Source: Chloroherpetonaceae bacterium (GTDB taxonomy: Bacteria; Bacteroidota; Chlorobiia; Chlorobiales; Thermochlorobacteraceae). From it: a stretch of 64,000 bases of DNA. Shown piece after piece: positions 17,663 through 40,359 of this stretch; positions within the stretch are counted from its first letter, which is position 1; each line of letters begins with the position of its first letter. Made by a program: the position numbers and the translations under genes. Location of the stretch: assembly GCA_033763895.1 (NCBI GenBank), contig JANRJQ010000004.1, positions 545,001-609,000 of the forward strand. The letters are read 5' to 3'. The notes under the pieces were generated by a model, which saw only the letters and a list, made by a program, of their open reading frames with translations, was not told the origin of the DNA and ran no database searches.

Positions 17663-18967
17663 TTAAATTTGATCAAACCAGTTTTTAAGTCGATTCACCA
17701 AAGAGTTATCATTTTCTTTGGGAATTTCTTTTGGCACCTCGGTTGCGGCTCTTTCTTCGGAGAGCAATGAATTTTCGGCACGAATCGGATTTTGTTCGAT
17801 TTCTTCGAGTGCGCGTAAGACAAGCCCTACGGCCGTTGCGTAAATCGGTGAATTTATTTCACCAAGCATACCTCCTGATATACCTTCTGGTTTTCCGATT
17901 CGAACATCCATTCCAAGAATCTCTTGGGCGAGAGCTTGGGTACCGTCGATCATTGAACCACCTCCGGTGAGAATTGCACCGGCATTGAGATAATCGTAGT
18001 AGTCAGATTTTTTTAGGACTTTTACAGAGTGCTCAAAAATTTCAATCAATCGGGCTTCGATAATATTTGTCAGTTGACTACGCATAAACATTTTTGGTGC
18101 TCGGCCTTCAATGCTTTGGACATGAATTTCCTCGTCACGAATAAGATCGCGAGAGTAGGCAAATCCGTATTTGATTTTAAGATCTTCTGCAACATAGTCA
18201 AGTGTTTTAAGGCCGTAAGCGATGTCGTTCGTAACATCAAAGGCTGCCAATTTTATGACTTCTGAATGACGAATGACACCTTTTGTATAAATCGCGATAT
18301 CGGATGTTCCTCCGCCGATATCAATAATTGCAACGCCAGACTTTTTCTCTGATTCTTTTAAGACTGCAAGCCCCGATGCAATGGGTTCAAAGGTCATTCC
18401 ATTGATGACAAGACCAGCCTTTTCAATACACTGCTCGATATTGCGAATTTTATTCTTCATTCCAACCACCACATACACGGCACCCTTCATCGTTTGACCG
18501 ACCATCCCAATTGGGTCAATAACACCTTCTTGATCATCGATAATAAATTCTTGCGGAATCGAGTGAATGATTTCTCGCTCAAGATTGATCAGATTAATCA
18601 GGTTATTTTTGGCTTTATCGACAAACCGGCGGACATCGTCTTCTCGAACAATTCCGCTGGGGTTAATGGTAATTTCGGCATTCGACTTTATGCATTGGAC
18701 ATGCTCACCCGATATACCCACATTTACCCCTTTGATGCGTATGCCCGACAGTTGCTCCGCTTGCTCAACGGCTTTTGTGATGGCATCAACTGTTTTATTG
18801 ATGTTCACTACTGCTGCTCTTGAAACCCCTTCCGATTTTGCTTTTCCAACGCCAAGAATTTGAATTTTTCCGAATTCATCTTTCTTAGCGACAACCACAC
18901 AAATTTTGGTGGTGCCGATATCCAACCCTACAACAATTTTATCTTTCATATCCCGATGCTTTGGCAA
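17663..18967 (-). CDS. ftsA: Cell division protein FtsA
   Basis: An actin-like ATPase that tethers FtsZ to the membrane. It starts with the phosphate-1 motif VVGLDIGTTKI, has the AIIDIGGGTSD phosphate-2 motif and GAILTGGGSMI adenosine motif, and ends in an amphipathic helix (SLVNRLKNWFDQI) that would insert in the membrane. Start choice: TTG at 18967 has AGGA 7 bases upstream; ATG at 18949 gives a usual N-terminus but no ribosome site. Either start overlaps the 3' end of ftsQ, so the two are translationally coupled. Confidence 0.96.
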   Translation of the reverse strand: MPKHRDMKDKIVVGLDIGTTKICVVVAKKDEFGKIQILGVGKAKSEGVSRAAVVNINKTVDAITKAVEQAEQLSGIRIKGVNVGISGEHVQCIKSNAEITINPSGIVREDDVRRFVDKAKNNLINLINLEREIIHSIPQEFIIDDQEGVIDPIGMVGQTMKGAVYVVVGMKNKIRNIEQCIEKAGLVINGMTFEPIASGLAVLKESEKKSGVAIIDIGGGTSDIAIYTKGVIRHSEVIKLAAFDVTNDIAYGLKTLDYVAEDLKIKYGFAYSRDLIRDEEIHVQSIEGRAPKMFMRSQLTNIIEARLIEIFEHSVKVLKKSDYYDYLNAGAILTGGGSMIDGTQALAQEILGMDVRIGKPEGISGGMLGEINSPIYATAVGLVLRALEEIEQNPIRAENSLLSEERAATEVPKEIPKENDNSLVNRLKNWFDQI

Positions 18968-19922
18968 ATACTTTTCCTGAATACCTTAAATCGACATACT
19001 CAAAAGCATTAATTCCCTTTTTGGTAATCACTGCTTTCCAGAATGTTTCAAAACTGACCAATACTTCCTGATGACGTTTCTCTTCCCTTTCATTCGTTAA
19101 TTTTTCACTTTCTCCCTGCGGCGTTTCTATGGCTCCACCTGAAATGTAGAATCGCGTATCACCATCGTTTGTAAGAGCAATAATTCGCTTTGGATTTGCA
19201 ACATTGATTTCAGCAATGACCATTTTTGCAAATTCACTTTTTTGTAGCTCGTTCAAGAAAAATAAGGCATCGCTTACCTCCGTACGATCTAACTTTCGCT
19301 TTCCTTCTTCTTTTACAATTTTCTGAAAGCCACTGAGTACCGGAATTTTTCCTGAGCCCTTCATTGCTTCGGAAGCAAAAGGCAGTAAACTTCCTTCTCT
19401 TGAAATCATAACCCATTTCCCGGAGACTGAGGCCATAGCAACAGGAATTTCTTCAACAATTTCAACTCGAATGGCATCCGGTAATTCTTTTGACACAATA
19501 GCCTTTGCAATAAATGGCTCAGATTGAAGCGTATCTGCTATTGCCGTAATTGAAACCTCTGAAAGCGACATTCCGCGCCACTTTTTGGTGAGCTTTACGA
19601 TTGATTCTTCAGCAACGGTTTGATTCCCTGTGACGATGAGCCTCTCAAATTTTGACTCACCAAGAAGCAACCGAGATGCGATAAAAGCGACAATGAGAAC
19701 AGAAACCAGCGCACCGATAACCCATAATTTTTTTCGTGAATCATTTGCATCAGGCTCCGTTATTCCTTCCCTTTCGGTTTCACTATTTTCAATATTCTCT
19801 TTCAGTTCCAATGAGGGTTTCTCATCGGTTGTGATATAGCTTTGAGCTGTGCTTGGTAAATCTGCCCGATTATTTTTTGGTTCAAACGGCCGATCTTCCC
19901 CTAAGTCAACATATCCTTTCAT
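18939..19922 (-). CDS. ftsQ: Cell division protein FtsQ
   Basis: A 327-residue bitopic protein. About 65 polar residues come first, then one membrane helix (about 68-88, LWVIGALVSVLIVAFIA), then a POTRA domain that starts FERLIVTGNQTV, and a beta domain. It is expected to link early and late division proteins at the septum. The cytoplasmic part is long for the family. Its ATG overlaps the murB stop by 4 bases, and its own end overlaps ftsA. Sequence identity to model FtsQ is low, so the call rests on position, topology and the POTRA segment. Confidence 0.85.
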   Translation of the reverse strand: MKGYVDLGEDRPFEPKNNRADLPSTAQSYITTDEKPSLELKENIENSETEREGITEPDANDSRKKLWVIGALVSVLIVAFIASRLLLGESKFERLIVTGNQTVAEESIVKLTKKWRGMSLSEVSITAIADTLQSEPFIAKAIVSKELPDAIRVEIVEEIPVAMASVSGKWVMISREGSLLPFASEAMKGSGKIPVLSGFQKIVKEEGKRKLDRTEVSDALFFLNELQKSEFAKMVIAEINVANPKRIIALTNDGDTRFYISGGAIETPQGESEKLTNEREEKRHQEVLVSFETFWKAVITKKGINAFEYVDLRYSGKVFAKASGYER

Positions 19923-20929
19923 ACCTCTAAATATGATGTTTGATTTCCGGCAGTTTGGCCAAAGGAATTTTCTTGAGCTTTCAAGGCATTCTGAGAAAAT
20001 CCCAAGAGTTTAATTTCTAATTCGAGCGAGACACGAAACTTTTGAAAGACTTCTCTTTTAGCGATATCAATCAATTCTAGCATTTCACTTGCTTTTGCCG
20101 AAGCATTTGCATTGACCAAAAAATTGGCATGTTTTTCTGAAATTTGAGCGCCTCCCCTTTGAAGGCCTTTTAGTCCACAAGCTTCAATCATCACACCGGC
20201 AAACCTTGGATTACCCTCTGAATCCGGTGGCGGATTTTTGAAGACACTTCCTGCATTTGGCAAATTGAGCGGTTGAGACGAGCGGCGTTTTTCCATCCAC
20301 TCTTTCTTCTTTTCGATTGCAATTTTCAGTTCACTTTCTTTAAGTTTCTTCAATTTCAACTTGGTTGAAAGAATGATATCATTCCCAAGATCGGTACCTC
20401 GGTATCGGTATGCAATTTTGCTTTTGTGTAATTTTTCAATTTTGCCATTCCTTAAAACCTCGACCCATTCAATGACTTCAAAAATTTCTTTTCCGTAAGC
20501 GCCGGCATTCATTAATACAGCTCCGCCAATACTCCCGGGCACACCGGAAAGATTTTCTAACCCGCCATATCCTTTCTTTAGTGTTTTTGCAGCGAGCTCG
20601 GGTAAGTCAACCCCGGCTTCAACATAGAAGTAAATATGTTCTTCATCTTCCGATTCCACTTCAACCTTTTCAAGATTTTCGCGAAGTGAAATGACCGCGC
20701 CACGAATTCCCTCATCCGAAATCAGCACATTGCTACCCCGTCCTAAAACAACATATTGAATCCCTGATTTCTGAAAGAACGAGACTGCAGAAAGGACATC
20801 TTGTTTGTCAAGCGGTTTAATGAAGAAATCCGCATTTCCACCGATTCGGTAACTTGAATACTTCGCTAGATTCTCGGCGATAAGAATTTCACCACGAATA
20901 GCTTTTCTCATTTCTTCCAAAGAAACCAT
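19919..20929 (-). CDS. murB: UDP-N-acetylenolpyruvoylglucosamine reductase
   Basis: The flavoenzyme that reduces UDP-GlcNAc-enolpyruvate to UDP-MurNAc. The FAD-binding region contains VVLGRGSNVLISDEG and SGVPGSIGGAVLMNAGAYG; the catalytic serine lies in NAGSVFKNP. The ATG at 20929 is chosen (336 residues) over one at 20959 because AAAGGAG sits 5 bases upstream of it, whereas the longer form would overlap murC. It begins 10 bases after the murC stop and overlaps ftsQ by 4 bases. Confidence 0.97.
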   Translation of the reverse strand: MVSLEEMRKAIRGEILIAENLAKYSSYRIGGNADFFIKPLDKQDVLSAVSFFQKSGIQYVVLGRGSNVLISDEGIRGAVISLRENLEKVEVESEDEEHIYFYVEAGVDLPELAAKTLKKGYGGLENLSGVPGSIGGAVLMNAGAYGKEIFEVIEWVEVLRNGKIEKLHKSKIAYRYRGTDLGNDIILSTKLKLKKLKESELKIAIEKKKEWMEKRRSSQPLNLPNAGSVFKNPPPDSEGNPRFAGVMIEACGLKGLQRGGAQISEKHANFLVNANASAKASEMLELIDIAKREVFQKFRVSLELEIKLLGFSQNALKAQENSFGQTAGNQTSYLEV

Positions 20930-20939
20930 TGATACTCCT

Positions 20940-22877
20940 TTAGGCTTCAAGCGCGGCATTGCCGTGCTCTAAGGTTAAATGCTTAGTTGCATAATCAATT
21001 GTCAATTTCATACCCTTAAAGAATGAATAACCGATAATTGCTTTTGGTAATGCCGCTGTTTGTGCACCTCGCTCTTCGAGAAAGGTTCGAACGGAAGAGA
21101 GGTCCATAATGCCAACATGAATATTTTTTCGTGAAGTATTTCCGATTTCCATTTGTTCGGCCTTTACAACATCAATAATATGAATTGCCCCATCAACGCT
21201 ATGAACTTCTCGATCAAGATATTCACCCAATAACTCTTCAAATTCTCCTTCTTCCGCAATATCTTTTGAAATCAAACAATCTGTGGCACCTGTATCAAGT
21301 ACGGCACTTAGTTGGAACTTTTTGTTTTTTGAATGAATCGTTAAAGGCACAATAATTAGCGGAACATTTTCGGCTGCCAATTCGAAGCTGATTCTGTTTT
21401 TTTCGGTTACGACAGCGGTTTGCTGCCCTGATTTCATAATGAATTGCTCAGCAAGCACGGCTGCATCTTTGGTGATATCACCTGCACCCATAAAAACAAA
21501 TACATCCGTGGTTTCTCGCATTTGTGAAATACAGGTTTCTATAAATGCTTTTCGATCTGTGACAAGACCACCTTTTGCGCTTTGAATTTGATTAAGAACC
21601 AAGGCGGAACTTACCTCGTTATAGTCTTCTTTTTTCTCACGAGATCCGAAAACTTCATAAAGCGCAACAGAGTCGGCGAGATCTAAGGCTTCAGCAAATC
21701 CTTTTGCAAAATCTTTTGTTCGCGAGTACAGGTGCGGTTGAAAAACTGCCTTGATATTTTTCTTTGGAAATGCATTTCGTGCCGCGCTCAATGTTGCTTT
21801 AATTTCTGTGGGATGGTGTGCGTAGTCATCGATCACGACAGGGAATTCACTCGATCCTGAAAAACGAACATCAAACCGACGACCAACGCGGACAAACTTT
21901 TTAAGTGACTCGGCTATGGACGAAATATCCAGTCCAAGTTCCAGACCTACCGCGATTGCCGCGAGTGCATTTTTTGTATCGTGAATTCCTGCGGAGGCCA
22001 GTGAAATCAACCCGACGTCTTTGCCCCGAATTGAGAGACGGAATGTTTGTGAAACCCCATCAGTATTGAAATCTGATGCTCTGATATCCGCGTTTTCCTT
22101 TAAGCCATACGTGACCTTGCGGTGTTTCAGGTTTTTAGCAATTTCCAGAAGATTTTCCTCATCGGCACACAAAATAACAGATCCATAGAATGGGACTTTT
22201 TCAGCAAAGGTTGTGAAGGCATTTTTCAAATCATCCAAGTCCTTATAAATGTCAAGATGCTCGGCTTCGAGCGTTGTCATGACGGCAATGGTTGGGGTAA
22301 GTTTTAAGAATGTTCTGTCATATTCATCCGCTTCGATGACCATATATTCTCCTGAACCGACTAAACTGCTTCCTCCAAACCCTTGCTCTCGGAAATATGT
22401 CGATACGCCGCCAATTAATGCTGTTGGTTTTAACCCGCATTCGTGAAGCACGGTGGCTGTTAGCGAGGTGGTCGTGGTTTTTCCGTGAGTTCCTGCAATA
22501 CATATTCCAACCTTGTGACGCATGACTTCTCCCAACAATTCATCACGCTTAACGACAGGAATCCCTTGTTTATAGGCTTCCAATGTTTCGGGATTTTCTT
22601 TCGGGTTGACGGCAGAAGAGTGCGCCACAGCCTCAACACCAATAACATGAGCGGCTTGATGACCGATAAAAATTTTCGCCCCTCGCTCTTTCAATCGGTC
22701 AGTCACCTCCGATTCTTTTTCGTCTGAACCGCTGATAATCAGCCCTTTACTCAGCAAAATTTCTGCAATAGCACTCATCCCTGCTCCACCAATGCCGACT
22801 AAATGCATTCGCTTGAGCTTTCCAAACGGAAGACCCATTTGTGAAATCACGGATTGCTGTGTATTGCCTTTATTCAT
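20940..22877 (-). CDS. murC: UDP-N-acetylmuramate-L-alanine ligase fused to a retropepsin-like aspartic protease domain
   Basis: A 645-residue protein against the usual 455-490. Residues about 20-480 are a complete MurC: MHLVGIGGAGMS nucleotide loop, the ATP loop GTHGKTTTT (129-137), EADEYDRTF, and DDYAHHPTEIK. It adds L-alanine to UDP-MurNAc. Residues about 505-640 are an extra clan-AA aspartic protease fold: PLIIVPLTI strand, DTGAT catalytic loop (Asp528), and the second-half IIGYSFF (614-620) followed by a LTIDY strand. Such single-domain proteases act as dimers. The frame is open through the junction, so this is not a missed stop. The gene lies between murG and murB; ATG start. Confidence 0.93.
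   Translation of the reverse strand: MNKGNTQQSVISQMGLPFGKLKRMHLVGIGGAGMSAIAEILLSKGLIISGSDEKESEVTDRLKERGAKIFIGHQAAHVIGVEAVAHSSAVNPKENPETLEAYKQGIPVVKRDELLGEVMRHKVGICIAGTHGKTTTTSLTATVLHECGLKPTALIGGVSTYFREQGFGGSSLVGSGEYMVIEADEYDRTFLKLTPTIAVMTTLEAEHLDIYKDLDDLKNAFTTFAEKVPFYGSVILCADEENLLEIAKNLKHRKVTYGLKENADIRASDFNTDGVSQTFRLSIRGKDVGLISLASAGIHDTKNALAAIAVGLELGLDISSIAESLKKFVRVGRRFDVRFSGSSEFPVVIDDYAHHPTEIKATLSAARNAFPKKNIKAVFQPHLYSRTKDFAKGFAEALDLADSVALYEVFGSREKKEDYNEVSSALVLNQIQSAKGGLVTDRKAFIETCISQMRETTDVFVFMGAGDITKDAAVLAEQFIMKSGQQTAVVTEKNRISFELAAENVPLIIVPLTIHSKNKKFQLSAVLDTGATDCLISKDIAEEGEFEELLGEYLDREVHSVDGAIHIIDVVKAEQMEIGNTSRKNIHVGIMDLSSVRTFLEERGAQTAALPKAIIGYSFFKGMKLTIDYATKHLTLEHGNAALEA
20943..21365 (-). 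other. Retropepsin-like aspartic protease domain within murC
   Basis: This marks codons 505-645 of murC. The domain has the family pattern: a strand ending in two hydrophobics, LDTGAT with Asp528, a flap-like middle region, a hydrophobic-hydrophobic-Gly motif (IIG, 614-616) and a final strand. It matches the bacterial Asp_protease_2/gag-asp type by eye. A methionine at residue 481 could in principle start a separate product, but no ribosome site was checked as convincing there. Activity and substrate are unknown. Confidence 0.8.
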
Positions 22878-22898: not shown

Positions 22899-24041
22899 CT
22901 ATGGTTTTTCATCCAATTCACCTTCTTTAATCAATTCATCCTTAAAAACTTGTGCGTAAGCAATGGCATGCTTTGCGATCTCATGAGCTGCATTGGGCTT
23001 TGCAAAAGTTTGAACAGCCTTTGACATTGCGCTGAGCTTTGAATCATTCTTCAAAAGCGATTCAATTTTTACAACGCTTTCTTCACTTGTGAGATTGGCG
23101 TCAACAATTAATTCTGCAGCGCCTTTTTCAGTGAAACTTTCTGCATTGTGAAATTGATGATTATTTGCAGCAAATGGATATGGAATCAAAATGGAGGGTT
23201 TTCCGATTCGTGCCAACTCCGCAAGCGTTGAAGCTCCTGCTCGGCATAGCACCAAATCTGCTGCTGAATAAGCGACATCCATTTCATCGACAAAGCGATT
23301 GACCCACAAATGTTGCCTCTCTCCAATCCTTTTTATTATCGATTCAAACTCCAATTTTCCGGTTTGCCAAATCAAATTATTTTCGTTTAGAAATCGATCA
23401 AGATTTGCTTCGATAAATCGATTTAGGCTTCTTGCACCAAGGCTTCCTCCAAAGGCAAATAATGTTGGCCTTTCGGGCAATAGTCCAATTTTTTTTCTCG
23501 CTTCTGATTTTTCAATCAACTTAAAATCACGCGTCGGATTCCCGCTGACAAAAACACCCTCACGATTTAAGAGCTTTTTTGAACTTTCAAATGACAGGTG
23601 AACTTCATCGGCATTACGTGCTAAAAATTTTGTTGAAATGCCAAGTGACGCATTCTGCTCTTGAATGATGGTTGGGATTCCCCACCTTTGTGCCGCATAA
23701 ACGACCGGTGCACTAACATAACCACCGGTTCCGATTACCACATCCGGCTCTTCTTGATCCAACAAACGATACGATTCATCAATACTTTGCTTTAAGCGAA
23801 ATGGAAACTTTAGATTTTCTAGAATATTATGAATTGAAAACCCGCGCTTAAATCCTGCAATTGAAATTAAATGAAGAGTAAACCCTTGTTTTGGAACCTC
23901 GGTTGCCTCAATCCCTCTCTCTGTACCGGCAAAATGAATTCGTGAATCAGGCTTCATTTTCAAGATTTCTCTTGCAATGGCGATTCCGGGAAAAAGGTGC
24001 CCCCCTGTTCCACCGCCTGCGAATAAGAACTTTAACGGCAT
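22899..24041 (-). CDS. murG: UDP-N-acetylglucosamine:lipid I transferase MurG
   Basis: A 380-residue GT-B glycosyltransferase that adds GlcNAc to lipid I on the cytoplasmic face of the inner membrane, giving lipid II. The N-terminal glycine loop GGGTGGHLFPGIAIA and the C-terminal donor-site region (RAGASTLAEL, IPYPFAANNHQ) are intact. Its ATG follows the ftsW stop codon with no gap, preceded by an AAGGAG site inside ftsW, so translation is coupled. It ends 21 bases before murC. Confidence 0.98.
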   Translation of the reverse strand: MPLKFLFAGGGTGGHLFPGIAIAREILKMKPDSRIHFAGTERGIEATEVPKQGFTLHLISIAGFKRGFSIHNILENLKFPFRLKQSIDESYRLLDQEEPDVVIGTGGYVSAPVVYAAQRWGIPTIIQEQNASLGISTKFLARNADEVHLSFESSKKLLNREGVFVSGNPTRDFKLIEKSEARKKIGLLPERPTLFAFGGSLGARSLNRFIEANLDRFLNENNLIWQTGKLEFESIIKRIGERQHLWVNRFVDEMDVAYSAADLVLCRAGASTLAELARIGKPSILIPYPFAANNHQFHNAESFTEKGAAELIVDANLTSEESVVKIESLLKNDSKLSAMSKAVQTFAKPNAAHEIAKHAIAYAQVFKDELIKEGELDEKP

Positions 24042-35853: not shown

Positions 35854-38800
35854 TCAATTCAGCGGCCTTGCCACAACCACCGCTTTTTTGAGAGAGGTCA
35901 CCACGGCGGAATTGGCACCGAGTGCTTCTAAAAAGATGATATAGATGCCCATTCGCAACCGCTCGCGATTTTCTCCAAAGCCATCCCAGATAATACTTCC
36001 CTCTGAGGCCGTTGGCTCTGAATTGGCAAGCGTTCTTACAAGCCTTCCACGAACATCATATATCTTTATTCGAATTCGATTGACATTATCAGGAAGTTTA
36101 TAAGAAATGACTGCATTGTCCTCTCGTCCATCGCCATCGGGAGAAAATGGATTTGGTTTTACCTCAATTTTCCCTTGAGTTTCAATTGTAATTGTTTCCG
36201 CAAAAGCCGCATTGCGGCGAGCAGGCGTACCGCCAAATTCGCGGTTAGAGGAACTTGTCCAATTTCTTGAATCATTTGAGCCAAGATGAGGATTGATTCG
36301 TTCAAGCGCAATTCCCGAGGTTGAGGAATAAAATGAATTATGCCACTCGGGTGAGTAACGAACGGAATCGATAATGCCATCGGTGTTATCCACAAGCTGT
36401 ACAAGTCCACCGGTCGTTGAATTGGAGAAGGTACTTCGTGAAGTGATGAAAAAAAGTTTTGCAGTAGAGTCGCTCTTTAGATAAGAATAGAAAAGCACTA
36501 AACGCGTTGAATCACGGAGAAGTAACCGATCTGGAGAAATAACCGCATAATCACCGGGCTTTAATGCATAGTTCGCAAGTGAATCGGTTGCAAATTCATA
36601 CTTCTCAAATTCCCCGCGTTCATTGGGTAAATTGGTTAAATACCATCCACGGAGATCGATGGTGCTATCGCTTCTGTTAAAAAGTTCAACATAGTCGGGT
36701 TGGTCTTGTTTGAAATCGGTCGAGCTTTGAATCGGTTGATATAAAATTTCATTTACCACAATGGCGTTTCTCGGTGTACCTGTGAGTAGCAAGGTTTCAG
36801 CGCGGTTATTCAAAAGGTCGTTATCACCAGTAGCGGTAAGTATGATGATAAATCGCCGTGAATTCCGCTGCGCGGCTTGAGCAGTGAAGGAACGAACCGT
36901 AGAATCATTGGGTATCAGGTTCGAAGACAAAGTGAACGAAGCAGAAGAAATTTCCTCTTCAGGCTCAACAAGTGTGTTGGAATTCAAATCTTCATATACT
37001 TTCACGGTTGCGCCTGCCCCAAAGGCATTTAAGCCGCGATTGATGATGGTATAACCGATATTGATGTTCGCTCCCGGTGGCGTGCTGAATCGCACAGCAA
37101 AACGCAGGGCAAGATCAAATGGCTTTGGCGTTACGGTGTTTTCTCTGCCGGGCGAACCTCGCAGTGTTAATGAAGGAATATAATTTGAAGGTGAATCATT
37201 GCGTGTCATCATAATTTTTTCAAGCGACTTTCCCTTCTGTTTTGAATCACCCACATATGCCATATGTGCAATCAATTCACCTTGAGCCGTAATGATGGAA
37301 ATCGAATCTCCATCGTTCGAAAAATTTAGCGAACCGGAAGACCTTGCCAGCACAGCGTTTGCAGGAATAATGTCTTTATAAAACTGTGGCGAAGTAAAAT
37401 AATTGGGTGCAAAGATGAGCGCAAATTGTTTTGGTCCAATCAAAACATTGGCGTTGCTGCCGAGCGAATCGGTGATGACTAAATTTACTGAACCGCCAAT
37501 TCGCCAATTGCGAAGATTCAGTGTGTCAGTTTCACTTCGGTTATAGACTTCAAGATATTCATCAAAGGTGGTGCTGTTCGATTCTGCCGGCGGGTCATAC
37601 ATCACCTCCGATATGATAAGATTGGTATCGACAAAGTTCGGCTCAAAGACGAGCGCCGTGGTTTTCAGGGTATCATTAAGCCGCGCTTCGTCAGCGCTGA
37701 GCGTTGCTGCAACAATAAATCGCTTGAGCCCCGGAATTGAAGTTGAAAACGAAAAATCGAGATTGAGCGAATCAAGGGAAGCCAAATTCGAGGAAAGTGT
37801 ACGCGTATCGAGAAGCTCACTTAAAGCAGCAACTTCATTAGAATCACGGTCGTCATAGACTTCCACCCGAACGCTCGTTGCGGCTTGCTGTCCGTAATTC
37901 CGAACATTAGCGCGCAATGTTCCTTGCGTACCCGTTCGAATATTGGTTGATGGAAAAACAGTAAGGGAATTGATTCCAATATCAAATGCTTTTGGGGTAA
38001 TGGTATTCACCGAACCGGGCGTTCCGCCTGAAATCCCAGCTCTTCCCCAGTTTTGGAGCGTGTTTTCGCGTGTGAGCAGCACCTTTTCAAGTGAAAAGCC
38101 TTTTGTCAAATTTCCGGAGTAAGAATAGGTTTGAATGGTATCGCCAATCGATGTAATCAATCGAATAGTCGTTCCGCCATTAGTCAGACTGAGCGACGCT
38201 GAGGCGCCGAGAACCAAAACCCCACTTGGCACCTTGCTATTGTAAAATCGTGGGAAAGTGCTGAGATACGAAGAAGGCACAATCAAGGCATAACTTCGCG
38301 GCGCGAGCCGTGTTCTGCCGTCTCCGGTATCGGCTAAGGAAATTACCGAGCCTGTGCCAACACGAAGCCGCCACCCGGAAAAATCAATCGTATCAGTAGC
38401 CGACGAATTATATACCTCAATAAATTCATGCGCCGTTGAATTCGCATCGGCCGGTGGGTCGGGCATCACTTCTGATAAAATGATGTTTGTATCGGCATCA
38501 TTCGGAACAAAGGTATTAAATTGAGCGCGTGCCGTATCGTTTGTGCGTGATTCATCGCCTAAGAAAGAAACAGCTGCGACCAGTCGTCGAAGCCCACCTT
38601 TATTGGCTAAGAGTTCAATTCCCGTCACATTGAAGGAATCGGCAGGAGCGATGTCTGTCGAAGCAAATGTTTGACTGAAGAAGCGCTCGGGTTGAGATAC
38701 CACATTGTTTGAATCCGCATCTTCAAAAATTTCTAACCGATAGCCTGTGGCCGTTTGAGTTCCCAAGTTTTTAATCACGGTTCTTAACACAACCGTTGTT

Positions 38801-40359
38801 CCTAAGCGCACCGAACTTCCGCTGGGCTGAAAAGTGGAAATAGTGAGATCCTTTTCCTTTGGGGTATTGGTATTGATCACACCCGGAGAACCTCCGCTCA
38901 CCAACGCTCTCGCCCAATTGACCGAAGTGTTTTCGCGGGTAAGCTCTTTTTTTTCTTGAGAGAATCCTTTGGTTTGAGAACCATAAGTGTAGGTCTGAAT
39001 TGTATCATTGGTGCTTGTAATCAAACGAATGGTTGTTCCGCCATTGGTAAGGCTTAAACCGCCCGATGATCTTACAACCAATGTTCCCGAAGGGAGCAAT
39101 GCATTATAAATCCGCTCGTTGGCTTGGTACGTGCTTGGCACAATCAGTGCATAAGAGCGTGGCCGTAGCCACACACGCCCATCGCTTGTATCAGAAATCG
39201 TAACCGTTGAATTCGTCCCTGCCCGAAAACGATATAAAGTGAGATTGAGCGAATCAGTTGAGCTTGTGTTAAACACTTCCACAAATTCATTGGCGGTGGT
39301 GTTTCCCGAGGGAGGGTCTGCCATCACTTCAGTAAAAATCAAAGCAGTATCAAGCCCGGCGGACTGTAAAACGGTGATGTTAATTTTAGCGGTATCGTTG
39401 GTGCGAACTTCATCGCCCGATTGAGTAACGATGGTAACAAATCGCCGTAGTCCACTCACCGACAATCGAACCCAATTTGAGAATAAGAGAGAATCTCCTG
39501 AATTAAGTGTGGAAGAATTCGTTTGAGAAAAAAGTCTTTCATTCGAAACAAGCGTCGCATTGGAATCGCGGTCTTCATAAATTTCGTATAAAAATCCGGC
39601 AGAAGCTGCTGTTCCTAAATTCCGAACCCGTGCATCCAAACGCACACTATCTCCTTGAGTGATTGAAACTGATGGGAAAGCTGATAGTGATGTGATTGTT
39701 AAATCATTCTCTCTTGGCGAAACTGAATTGAAGGCTCCCGGCGTCCCGCCTTGTTGCAATCCCCGTTGCCAATTTGAAGCATCATTAATGCGTGTGAGAT
39801 TAATTTTCTCAAAAGCAAACCCTTTTGTTGAATTGCCATAAAAGTAGTTTTGAACCGTATCGTTTGAGGGAGAAATCAATCTTGCCAATGTTCCTGAACC
39901 TGAATTTGAGAGATCAAGCGATGTGTTCGATGTTCCGGAAGCACGAATAAATAAAGTTCCAGATGGTACCAAAGCATCATAAAAACGAGGCGATGTGGTG
40001 GTATAAGAAAATGGCACAATGAGCGCGAAGCGGCGAGGCGGGATTTTGACTGAATTACCAAGCGTATCCGTTAAAGTTCTTGCTGTACCTGAAAGTCCGC
40101 CGCGAAGTCGCCATCCAGTAAGCGATACCGAATCCGAAAAACTCAAATTAAAAATTTCAACATACTCGTGAGCCGTCGTACTTGCTCCCGTTACCGGATC
40201 GGGCATGACCTCGGTTAAAATGAGAAGCGAATCCGGAATTCCTTGACTTAAGAGGGGTTGCGACGGGATAACCCAAAATAGCAGTGCCATTGTGAGTGAA
40301 ATAAACAACTTGGAAGAGCGAGAGGCGACTGTTTTTTTATTCGGAATATTCGAAGCCAT
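35854..40359 (-). CDS. Secreted lamin-tail-domain / CARDB repeat protein with FlgD-type C-terminus
   Basis: A 1501-residue exported protein. The N-terminal signal peptide has its hydrophobic core at about 18-38. Five lamin-tail domains start near residues 45, 338, 625, 913 and 1200, each opening with a variant of LILTEVMPDPP and later EFVEVYN and GWRLRxG. Between them lie four CARDB-like Ig domains (NLGTxxA, EIYEDRDSN, RRFVxxVT). The repeat unit is about 287 residues. The last 100 residues (NPFSPDGDG, IKIYDVRGRLVRTL, WDGFGENRERL) are a FlgD/gliding-type Ig domain often found on secreted proteins of this phylum group. It is probably cell-surface or released; function unknown. ATG start. Confidence 0.85.
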   Translation of the reverse strand: MASNIPNKKTVASRSSKLFISLTMALLFWVIPSQPLLSQGIPDSLLILTEVMPDPVTGASTTAHEYVEIFNLSFSDSVSLTGWRLRGGLSGTARTLTDTLGNSVKIPPRRFALIVPFSYTTTSPRFYDALVPSGTLFIRASGTSNTSLDLSNSGSGTLARLISPSNDTVQNYFYGNSTKGFAFEKINLTRINDASNWQRGLQQGGTPGAFNSVSPRENDLTITSLSAFPSVSITQGDSVRLDARVRNLGTAASAGFLYEIYEDRDSNATLVSNERLFSQTNSSTLNSGDSLLFSNWVRLSVSGLRRFVTIVTQSGDEVRTNDTAKINITVLQSAGLDTALIFTEVMADPPSGNTTANEFVEVFNTSSTDSLNLTLYRFRAGTNSTVTISDTSDGRVWLRPRSYALIVPSTYQANERIYNALLPSGTLVVRSSGGLSLTNGGTTIRLITSTNDTIQTYTYGSQTKGFSQEKKELTRENTSVNWARALVSGGSPGVINTNTPKEKDLTISTFQPSGSSVRLGTTVVLRTVIKNLGTQTATGYRLEIFEDADSNNVVSQPERFFSQTFASTDIAPADSFNVTGIELLANKGGLRRLVAAVSFLGDESRTNDTARAQFNTFVPNDADTNIILSEVMPDPPADANSTAHEFIEVYNSSATDTIDFSGWRLRVGTGSVISLADTGDGRTRLAPRSYALIVPSSYLSTFPRFYNSKVPSGVLVLGASASLSLTNGGTTIRLITSIGDTIQTYSYSGNLTKGFSLEKVLLTRENTLQNWGRAGISGGTPGSVNTITPKAFDIGINSLTVFPSTNIRTGTQGTLRANVRNYGQQAATSVRVEVYDDRDSNEVAALSELLDTRTLSSNLASLDSLNLDFSFSTSIPGLKRFIVAATLSADEARLNDTLKTTALVFEPNFVDTNLIISEVMYDPPAESNSTTFDEYLEVYNRSETDTLNLRNWRIGGSVNLVITDSLGSNANVLIGPKQFALIFAPNYFTSPQFYKDIIPANAVLARSSGSLNFSNDGDSISIITAQGELIAHMAYVGDSKQKGKSLEKIMMTRNDSPSNYIPSLTLRGSPGRENTVTPKPFDLALRFAVRFSTPPGANINIGYTIINRGLNAFGAGATVKVYEDLNSNTLVEPEEEISSASFTLSSNLIPNDSTVRSFTAQAAQRNSRRFIIILTATGDNDLLNNRAETLLLTGTPRNAIVVNEILYQPIQSSTDFKQDQPDYVELFNRSDSTIDLRGWYLTNLPNERGEFEKYEFATDSLANYALKPGDYAVISPDRLLLRDSTRLVLFYSYLKSDSTAKLFFITSRSTFSNSTTGGLVQLVDNTDGIIDSVRYSPEWHNSFYSSTSGIALERINPHLGSNDSRNWTSSSNREFGGTPARRNAAFAETITIETQGKIEVKPNPFSPDGDGREDNAVISYKLPDNVNRIRIKIYDVRGRLVRTLANSEPTASEGSIIWDGFGENRERLRMGIYIIFLEALGANSAVVTSLKKAVVVARPLN

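Follow-up and report, generated by a model that had tools for sequence, protein, structure and literature searches.

The dcw cluster is one of the best-studied gene clusters of bacteria and, to our knowledge, its usual membership does not include a cytoplasmic protease. Within a window of 64,000 nucleotides from a Chloroherpetonaceae bacterium (contig JANRJQ010000004.1), a sequence-only reading had pointed to a dcw cluster in which the ligase MurC runs without interruption into an aspartic protease of the retropepsin type. This locus raises the question of whether such a fusion is real, from where its protease part was acquired, and what a protease attached to an enzyme of wall synthesis may do. 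In this work, we analyzed the architecture of the fusion gene, looked for its protease domain in related genomes and weighed the explanations that may account for it.

Architecture of the fusion gene

The minus strand of the window carries, exactly where it had been placed, a single frame of 645 codons devoid of internal stops (Table 1). Its first part is an ordinary MurC, as had been claimed: the NCBIfam murC model TIGR01082 matches residues 24-473 with 451.8 bits (cut-off 335.1), the three Mur ligase domains PF01225, PF08245 and PF02875 all score above their Pfam cut-offs, the ATP-binding GTHGKTTTT loop of MurC is present in the translation as AGTHGKTTTT, and an alignment with 12 relatives, ending in ...GDITK-A..LAE-F, extends the MurC homology in frame to about residue 479. 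The other Mur-ligase matches of this genome correspond to murD, murE and murF and, by inspection, to an Mpl-like and a FolC-like protein; thus, the fusion is the sole MurC of the organism. The linker that follows the MurC part is missing from the free proteases of relatives in the alignments.

The similarity of the C-terminus to clan-AA aspartic proteases was borne out by profile searches, in which PF13650 (Asp_protease_2) matched residues 518-619 with 34.7 bits (E=2.9e-8) in the full protein and reached 37.5 bits (E=3.9e-9) when the tail was searched alone, the gathering score being 24.3. Among the other Pfam models, gag-asp_proteas scored just above its cut-off with the tail, and RVP and Asp_protease below theirs. 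The DTGAT motif (Asp528) and the IIG motif of the second half were both found at the positions previously given for them. DTGAT is invariant in nine members of the clade and its DTGA core also in six distant homologues from Bacteroidota; the psi-loop glycine is invariant in the 15 sequences, and the DTGA core, one glycine and an IDY motif are common to the dcw proteases and the six distant homologues. The flap tip, which reads H(Q)-G-I-G-G in the free relatives, has become HSVDG in the fusion (G560S, I561V and G562D).

The domain is predicted to adopt a single-lobe, all-beta retropepsin fold. Its AlphaFold2 model (mean pLDDT 83.5, pTM 0.79) is weakest around the flap and at the ends, with low pLDDT at its start on the linker side. 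The top PDB match of this model in Foldseek was 5c9f, the APRc protease of Rickettsia conorii (E=5.7e-7, probability 1.00); a Bacteroides endopeptidase came next, ahead of pepsin-like enzymes and Ddi1. The free homologue from genome G009 was modeled with a pLDDT of 89.2 and also had APRc as its top match, and Ddi1 again figured among its hits. By sequence profile, the nearest solved proteins were Ddi1 domains (best E=5.8e-4).

Table 1 Features of the murC-protease locus (positions in the window)
Feature	Position	Strand	Basis
murG, upstream neighbour in operon	22899..24041	-	inspection and synteny
murC-protease fusion gene	20940..22877	-	645 codons plus TAA; open frame, murC and Asp_protease_2 over cut-offs
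MurC part, residues 1-480	21438..22877	-	TIGR01082 at residues 24-473; alignment with 12 relatives
Linker, residues 481-493 (MKSGQQTAVVTEK)	21399..21437	-	alignments
A7 run, codons 492-494	21397..21403	-	possible indel site, sequence checked
Retropepsin-like domain, residues 494-645	20943..21398	-	PF13650; AlphaFold2 model; Foldseek
Catalytic motif D528-T-G-A-T532	21282..21296	-	fits D-[ST]-G-[AST]
Flap tip H559-S-V-D-G563	21189..21203	-	alignment with free relatives
Psi-loop motif (hydrophobic-hydrophobic-Gly) I614-I-G616	21030..21038	-	sequence, alignment
murB	19919..20929	-	TIGR00179 over cut-off; start by alignment with relatives
ftsQ	18939..19922	-	weak FtsQ match and position

The murC and protease genes of relatives lie in different frames with short overlaps, so that a single wrong base, introduced by sequencing or assembly, could mimic a fusion by joining two frames that really overlap. 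Two features near the junction would suit such an error: ATG481 lies within ATTATGA, where a change of frame would let the TGA terminate MurC, and a run of seven adenines (A7) occupies codons 492-494. Against it, the extent of the in-frame MurC homology confines the error to a few bases without a long homopolymer. A length error in the A7 run would strip the protease frame of a start codon between the preceding stop and the conserved first strand, and in either of the shifted readings at A7 there is no protease start codon upstream of the run. Furthermore, when coding frames were scanned over the 464 kb surrounding the locus, a single candidate frame break lacking a start codon turned up, and the fused domain is strongly diverged and preceded by an N-terminal linker seen in no free relative. 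On these grounds, we consider an artefact very unlikely. Neither a stop nor a frameshift is present near codons 480-505, the stretch in which the earlier reading had placed the risk of one, and its view of the fusion as fixed rather than a pseudogene is supported: this is a real MurC joined to a retropepsin-like domain.

A programmed frameshift at the A-AAA-AAC slippery heptamer, which the A7 run forms in frame, was also considered; it was dropped because, by eye, the -1 frame adds only some 30 residues before a stop and no further support for it was found. As regards internal initiation at ATG481, the free relatives have no consistent ribosome-binding site for the protease start, and ribosome-binding site strength is therefore uninformative on this point.

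Origin from a neighbouring dcw gene

The surroundings of the fusion are those of the otherwise canonical dcw cluster that had been described, with the full gene set from mraZ to ftsZ: mraZ, mraW, ftsL, ftsI, murE, murF, mraY, murD, ftsW, murG, murC-protease, murB, ftsQ, ftsA and ftsZ, all 15 on the minus strand (names by inspection of translations). The likely start of murB is at 20929 and its AAGGAG site abuts the stop codon of the fusion. Upstream of mraZ, the window holds a 1501-codon frame (35854-40359) whose translation shows several domain repeats (EVM.DP...EFIEV...) and, at its C-terminus, a segment resembling a secretion/sorting domain.

A search with the tail alone, covering 101 genomes (100 near ones besides that of the window), found the domain in ten of them, the window's genome included. 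In all nine others, a free frame that encodes it, about 143-153 codons in length, follows murC and precedes murB. These nine are G009, probably Chloroherpeton thalassium, and all eight remaining genomes of the family to which the window belongs. The free protease gene overlaps the end of murC in eight of the nine genomes, and the start of murB is often overlapped too. The fused domain shares 28-36% identity with the free proteases and is homologous to them over its whole length. A profile built from nine sequences and scanned across 395 genomes of the phylum recovered the same ten genomes at E 1e-58 or better, the matches in all other genomes of the phylum being weak (E 1e-8 or worse). Orthologues of the same domain, as a separate gene at the same place in nine related genomes, exclude chance as the source of this similarity. 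In the lineage of the window, a free dcw protease gene has clearly become the C-terminus of MurC. The earlier interpretation thus stands as far as a real, fixed MurC-retropepsin fusion is concerned, but its protease is no isolated invention: it is normally a free, conserved gene of the Chloroherpetonaceae/Thermochlorobacter-like lineage, whose dcw cluster, as the conserved murC/murB position shows, includes a retropepsin-like gene.

No other genome carried the fusion, either among the 98 of the class or among the 395 of the phylum; a scan of the whole class with the full fusion gave no second MurC-protease fusion, and a whole-protein contig search with it returned ordinary MurCs only. One candidate, locus L022 from Moraniibacteriota, had a match reaching query residue 557, but its 494-codon frame has a normal MurC ending and it was rejected. 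A protease gene after murC is absent from the sampled Chlorobiaceae and from G012, which a five-protein tree places as sister to G009; as these genomes lack it at this place, the protease is dispensable. The simplest history would place the gene in the common ancestor of both families, with a loss in G012. In G010, the murC match is partial and searches with FtsA and FtsQ gave no convincing dcw match.

Members of PF13650 are not restricted to the dcw subfamily. Some of these genomes encode, at other loci, generic PF13650 proteins that fall outside that subfamily, and the window's genome has a second Asp_protease_2 match (G000:C6:171-443), in a 255-codon frame near a contig end, that does not belong to it. 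Other Bacteroidota encode free, cytoplasmic-looking clan-AA proteases of 145-165 aa (L037, L044, L048, L050, L055 and L056), in which the DTGA[ST], DLS-like and IDY motifs of the dcw protease recur; none of these genes lies beside murC/murB. Among the 20 loci checked that carry distant aspartic protease matches in the phylum, none had murC or murB as a neighbour within about 1.5 kb. A further observation concerns murB in Chlorobiaceae: with the window's MurB as query, the dcw loci L097, L098, L100-L104 and L106 show no murB between murC and ftsQ, and L099 shows a partial match there, so murB in these clusters seems to have moved, been lost or become very divergent.

Selection and possible function of the dcw protease

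The free protease is under purifying selection about as strong as that acting on its neighbours. Its dN/dS is 0.03-0.12 in most close pairs, compared with 0.07-0.17 for murC and 0.07-0.12 for murB, and is higher (0.25) in the pair G003/G007, all these values being rough as several dS are near saturation. The fused domain behaves differently: its terminal branch has a length of 2.05 substitutions per site, whereas those of MurC and MurB from this genome reach 0.61 and 0.37, i.e. the domain evolved 3-6 times faster than either. Of 45 residues invariant in eight free sequences, the fusion keeps 25, including the whole DTGAT, the psi-loop glycine and IDY, and has changed 20, the flap tip among them. 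This fast evolution together with the loss of the flap G-x-G tip may reflect a relaxed function.

A lead towards a possible partner came from ftsQ, located two genes downstream of the fusion. The first 68 or so residues of its product (19719-19922) form a long acidic cytoplasmic tail carrying YVDL...SYIT, and the FtsQ cytoplasmic tail is longer and mostly acidic in the protease-bearing genomes. In agreement with this, when G009 FtsQ was used as query, most protease-bearing genomes aligned from residue 1-3 and the genomes without the gene from later positions, with G002 and G004 as exceptions. A tandem aromatic-acidic motif, [FY][VI][EDA][FYLM]...Y[VAI][EAT], is present in the tail in 9/9 protease-bearing genomes, the fused one included, and in 0/10 of the sampled protease-less ones, although the pattern was defined after the sequences had been seen, the genomes are not independent and only G012 provides a contrast outside the Chlorobiaceae split. 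The motif-bearing FtsQs are those of the window and of loci L087-L095. The co-occurrence of motif and protease makes the FtsQ tail a candidate substrate or docking partner of the dcw protease; as putative substrates, this tail and the linker within the fusion come first.

Starting from a fusion that derives from a conserved neighbouring gene and retains its catalytic motifs in a predicted retropepsin fold, we infer dimerisation, proteolytic activity and a substrate as follows. The dcw operon of this lineage encodes a small cytoplasmic retropepsin-like protease between murC and murB, whose output is probably kept in step with that of MurC and MurB by the overlapping reading frames. In the window's lineage, the protease gene lost its own start and turned into the C-terminal domain of the only MurC. 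Retropepsins are homodimers in which each chain gives one aspartate; likewise, two copies of the domain would pair, each contributing D528, and the dimer would cut a specific partner of the wall or division pathway, or its own linker. The fusion would set the ratio of protease to MurC at one to one and might also pair MurC molecules. By analogy with APRc, RimB and RloA, we propose that the dcw protease specifically processes proteins of the wall or of division. Taken as a whole, a dcw retropepsin fused to MurC and acting as a dimer on a wall/division partner or on its own linker is the best explanation we can offer, and we regard it as having an even chance of being correct. A narrower version, in which a dedicated dcw retropepsin processes a division protein, with [FY]VE[FY]...Y[AV]E of the FtsQ tail as candidate site, and the MurC fusion ties this processing to the enzyme by which the wall precursor receives its first amino acid, is a long shot. 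If true, division would be coupled to the supply of precursors through proteolysis, a connection that has not been previously described.

The flap changes and the fast evolution bear directly on this explanation, since they imply that the fused copy is possibly not a working protease. Its fold could have been retained for dimerisation or regulation, as an accessory part pairing MurC molecules or holding MurC near the division machinery, and the core fold is indeed still well predicted after losing the flap glycines and diverging several times faster than MurC and MurB. Nevertheless, D-T-G-A-T, the psi-loop glycine and IDY have all survived while 20 of the 45 invariant sites changed, and a pure scaffold would have no need of the catalytic aspartate. 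We see a real, though minor, chance that this possibility holds, and it is the most serious of the competitors. The same flap changes weigh against a polyprotein, in which the domain would cleave itself within the linker of about 13 residues and release free MurC and free protease. Both parts are separate proteins in the relatives, the linker is short, with a start that is poorly structured in the model, and APRc processes itself from a fusion (PMC4140852); but the loss of the protease start codon need not imply processing, and we find this outcome improbable. We attach a similarly low probability to the fusion being a neutral event between co-transcribed genes, in which case the protease would act on a substrate that has nothing to do with the cell wall and would not be functionally tied to MurC. 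The similar small clan-AA proteases found elsewhere in Bacteroidota, away from murC/murB, would be in line with such a passenger; however, the murC/murB position was kept in nine genomes of the clade, belonging to two families, and the fusion has kept both its frame and its active site. Altogether, the processing dimer described above remains our preferred reading.

Relation to known systems

Retropepsin-like proteins with roles in cell-cycle or developmental control are known in bacteria, namely PerP of Caulobacter and the membrane-anchored SpoIIGA of Bacillus, both of which the earlier reading had named; we know of no fusion of either to a wall-synthesis enzyme. MurC, in turn, has been found joined to other enzymes: a MurB-MurC fusion is known in Verrucomicrobium spinosum (PMC4803751) and the MurC-Ddl fusion has its own NCBIfam model (NF011171). 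In these cases, unlike the one described here, MurC is joined to another biosynthetic enzyme from its own pathway and no protease is involved.

The nearest functional parallel is RimB, a retropepsin-like bacterial protease that works with the amino-acid ligase RimK, and of which an active RimBK hybrid exists (PMC11957791). Both systems combine a small DTG retropepsin-like protease with an ATP-dependent amino-acid ligase, as partners and, in some species, as a fusion. However, RimK is an ATP-grasp glutamate ligase acting on the ribosomal protein RpsF, whereas the partner here is a Mur ligase; the protease is N-terminal in RimBK (PMC11957791) and C-terminal in the MurC fusion; and the Pfam models matched in the latter are Asp_protease_2 and gag-asp_proteas. 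APRc of R. conorii (RC1339; PDB 5C9F and others) is likewise a bacterial retropepsin-like protein and the best PDB fold match of both the fused and the free domain; it accumulates as a dimer, and its GST fusion processes itself in an aspartate-dependent manner (PMC4140852). In contrast, it shows 15-20% identity to the dcw protease, and work on it has concerned its modulation of surface proteins in Rickettsia, with no link to Mur ligases. Ddi1, the closest solved relative by profile, is covered over the active site and flap region, but it is eukaryotic, has a different domain layout and its similarity is weak. The RloA proteases of Pseudomonas, related to RimB, are dimeric bacterial retropepsins with solved structures, whose operon includes an ATP-grasp protein and without which cell shape and the sensitivity to antibiotics are altered (PMC12239564); unlike the dcw protease, they are secreted, encoded outside the dcw cluster and not fused to a ligase.

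MurC-MurB and MurC-Ddl fusions, bacterial retropepsins and a retropepsin-ligase hybrid were thus already known. A literature search among open-licence papers returned nothing relevant on a MurC-aspartic-protease fusion or a dcw aspartic protease, and a retropepsin as a conserved dcw resident and its fusion to MurC are, within the literature searched, new. As a conserved gene between murC and murB, this small protease of the HIV type appears to be a member of the wall-synthesis and division cluster that has escaped notice. The joining of a retropepsin to the essential enzyme MurC would be the second of a retropepsin to an amino-acid ligase after RimBK, which suggests a recurrent design. The conserved position of the protease gene, the purifying selection acting on it and its single natural fusion with MurC all suggest that a retropepsin is functionally linked to wall synthesis; should G009 prove to be Chloroherpeton thalassium, this link could be tested in an organism that is in culture.
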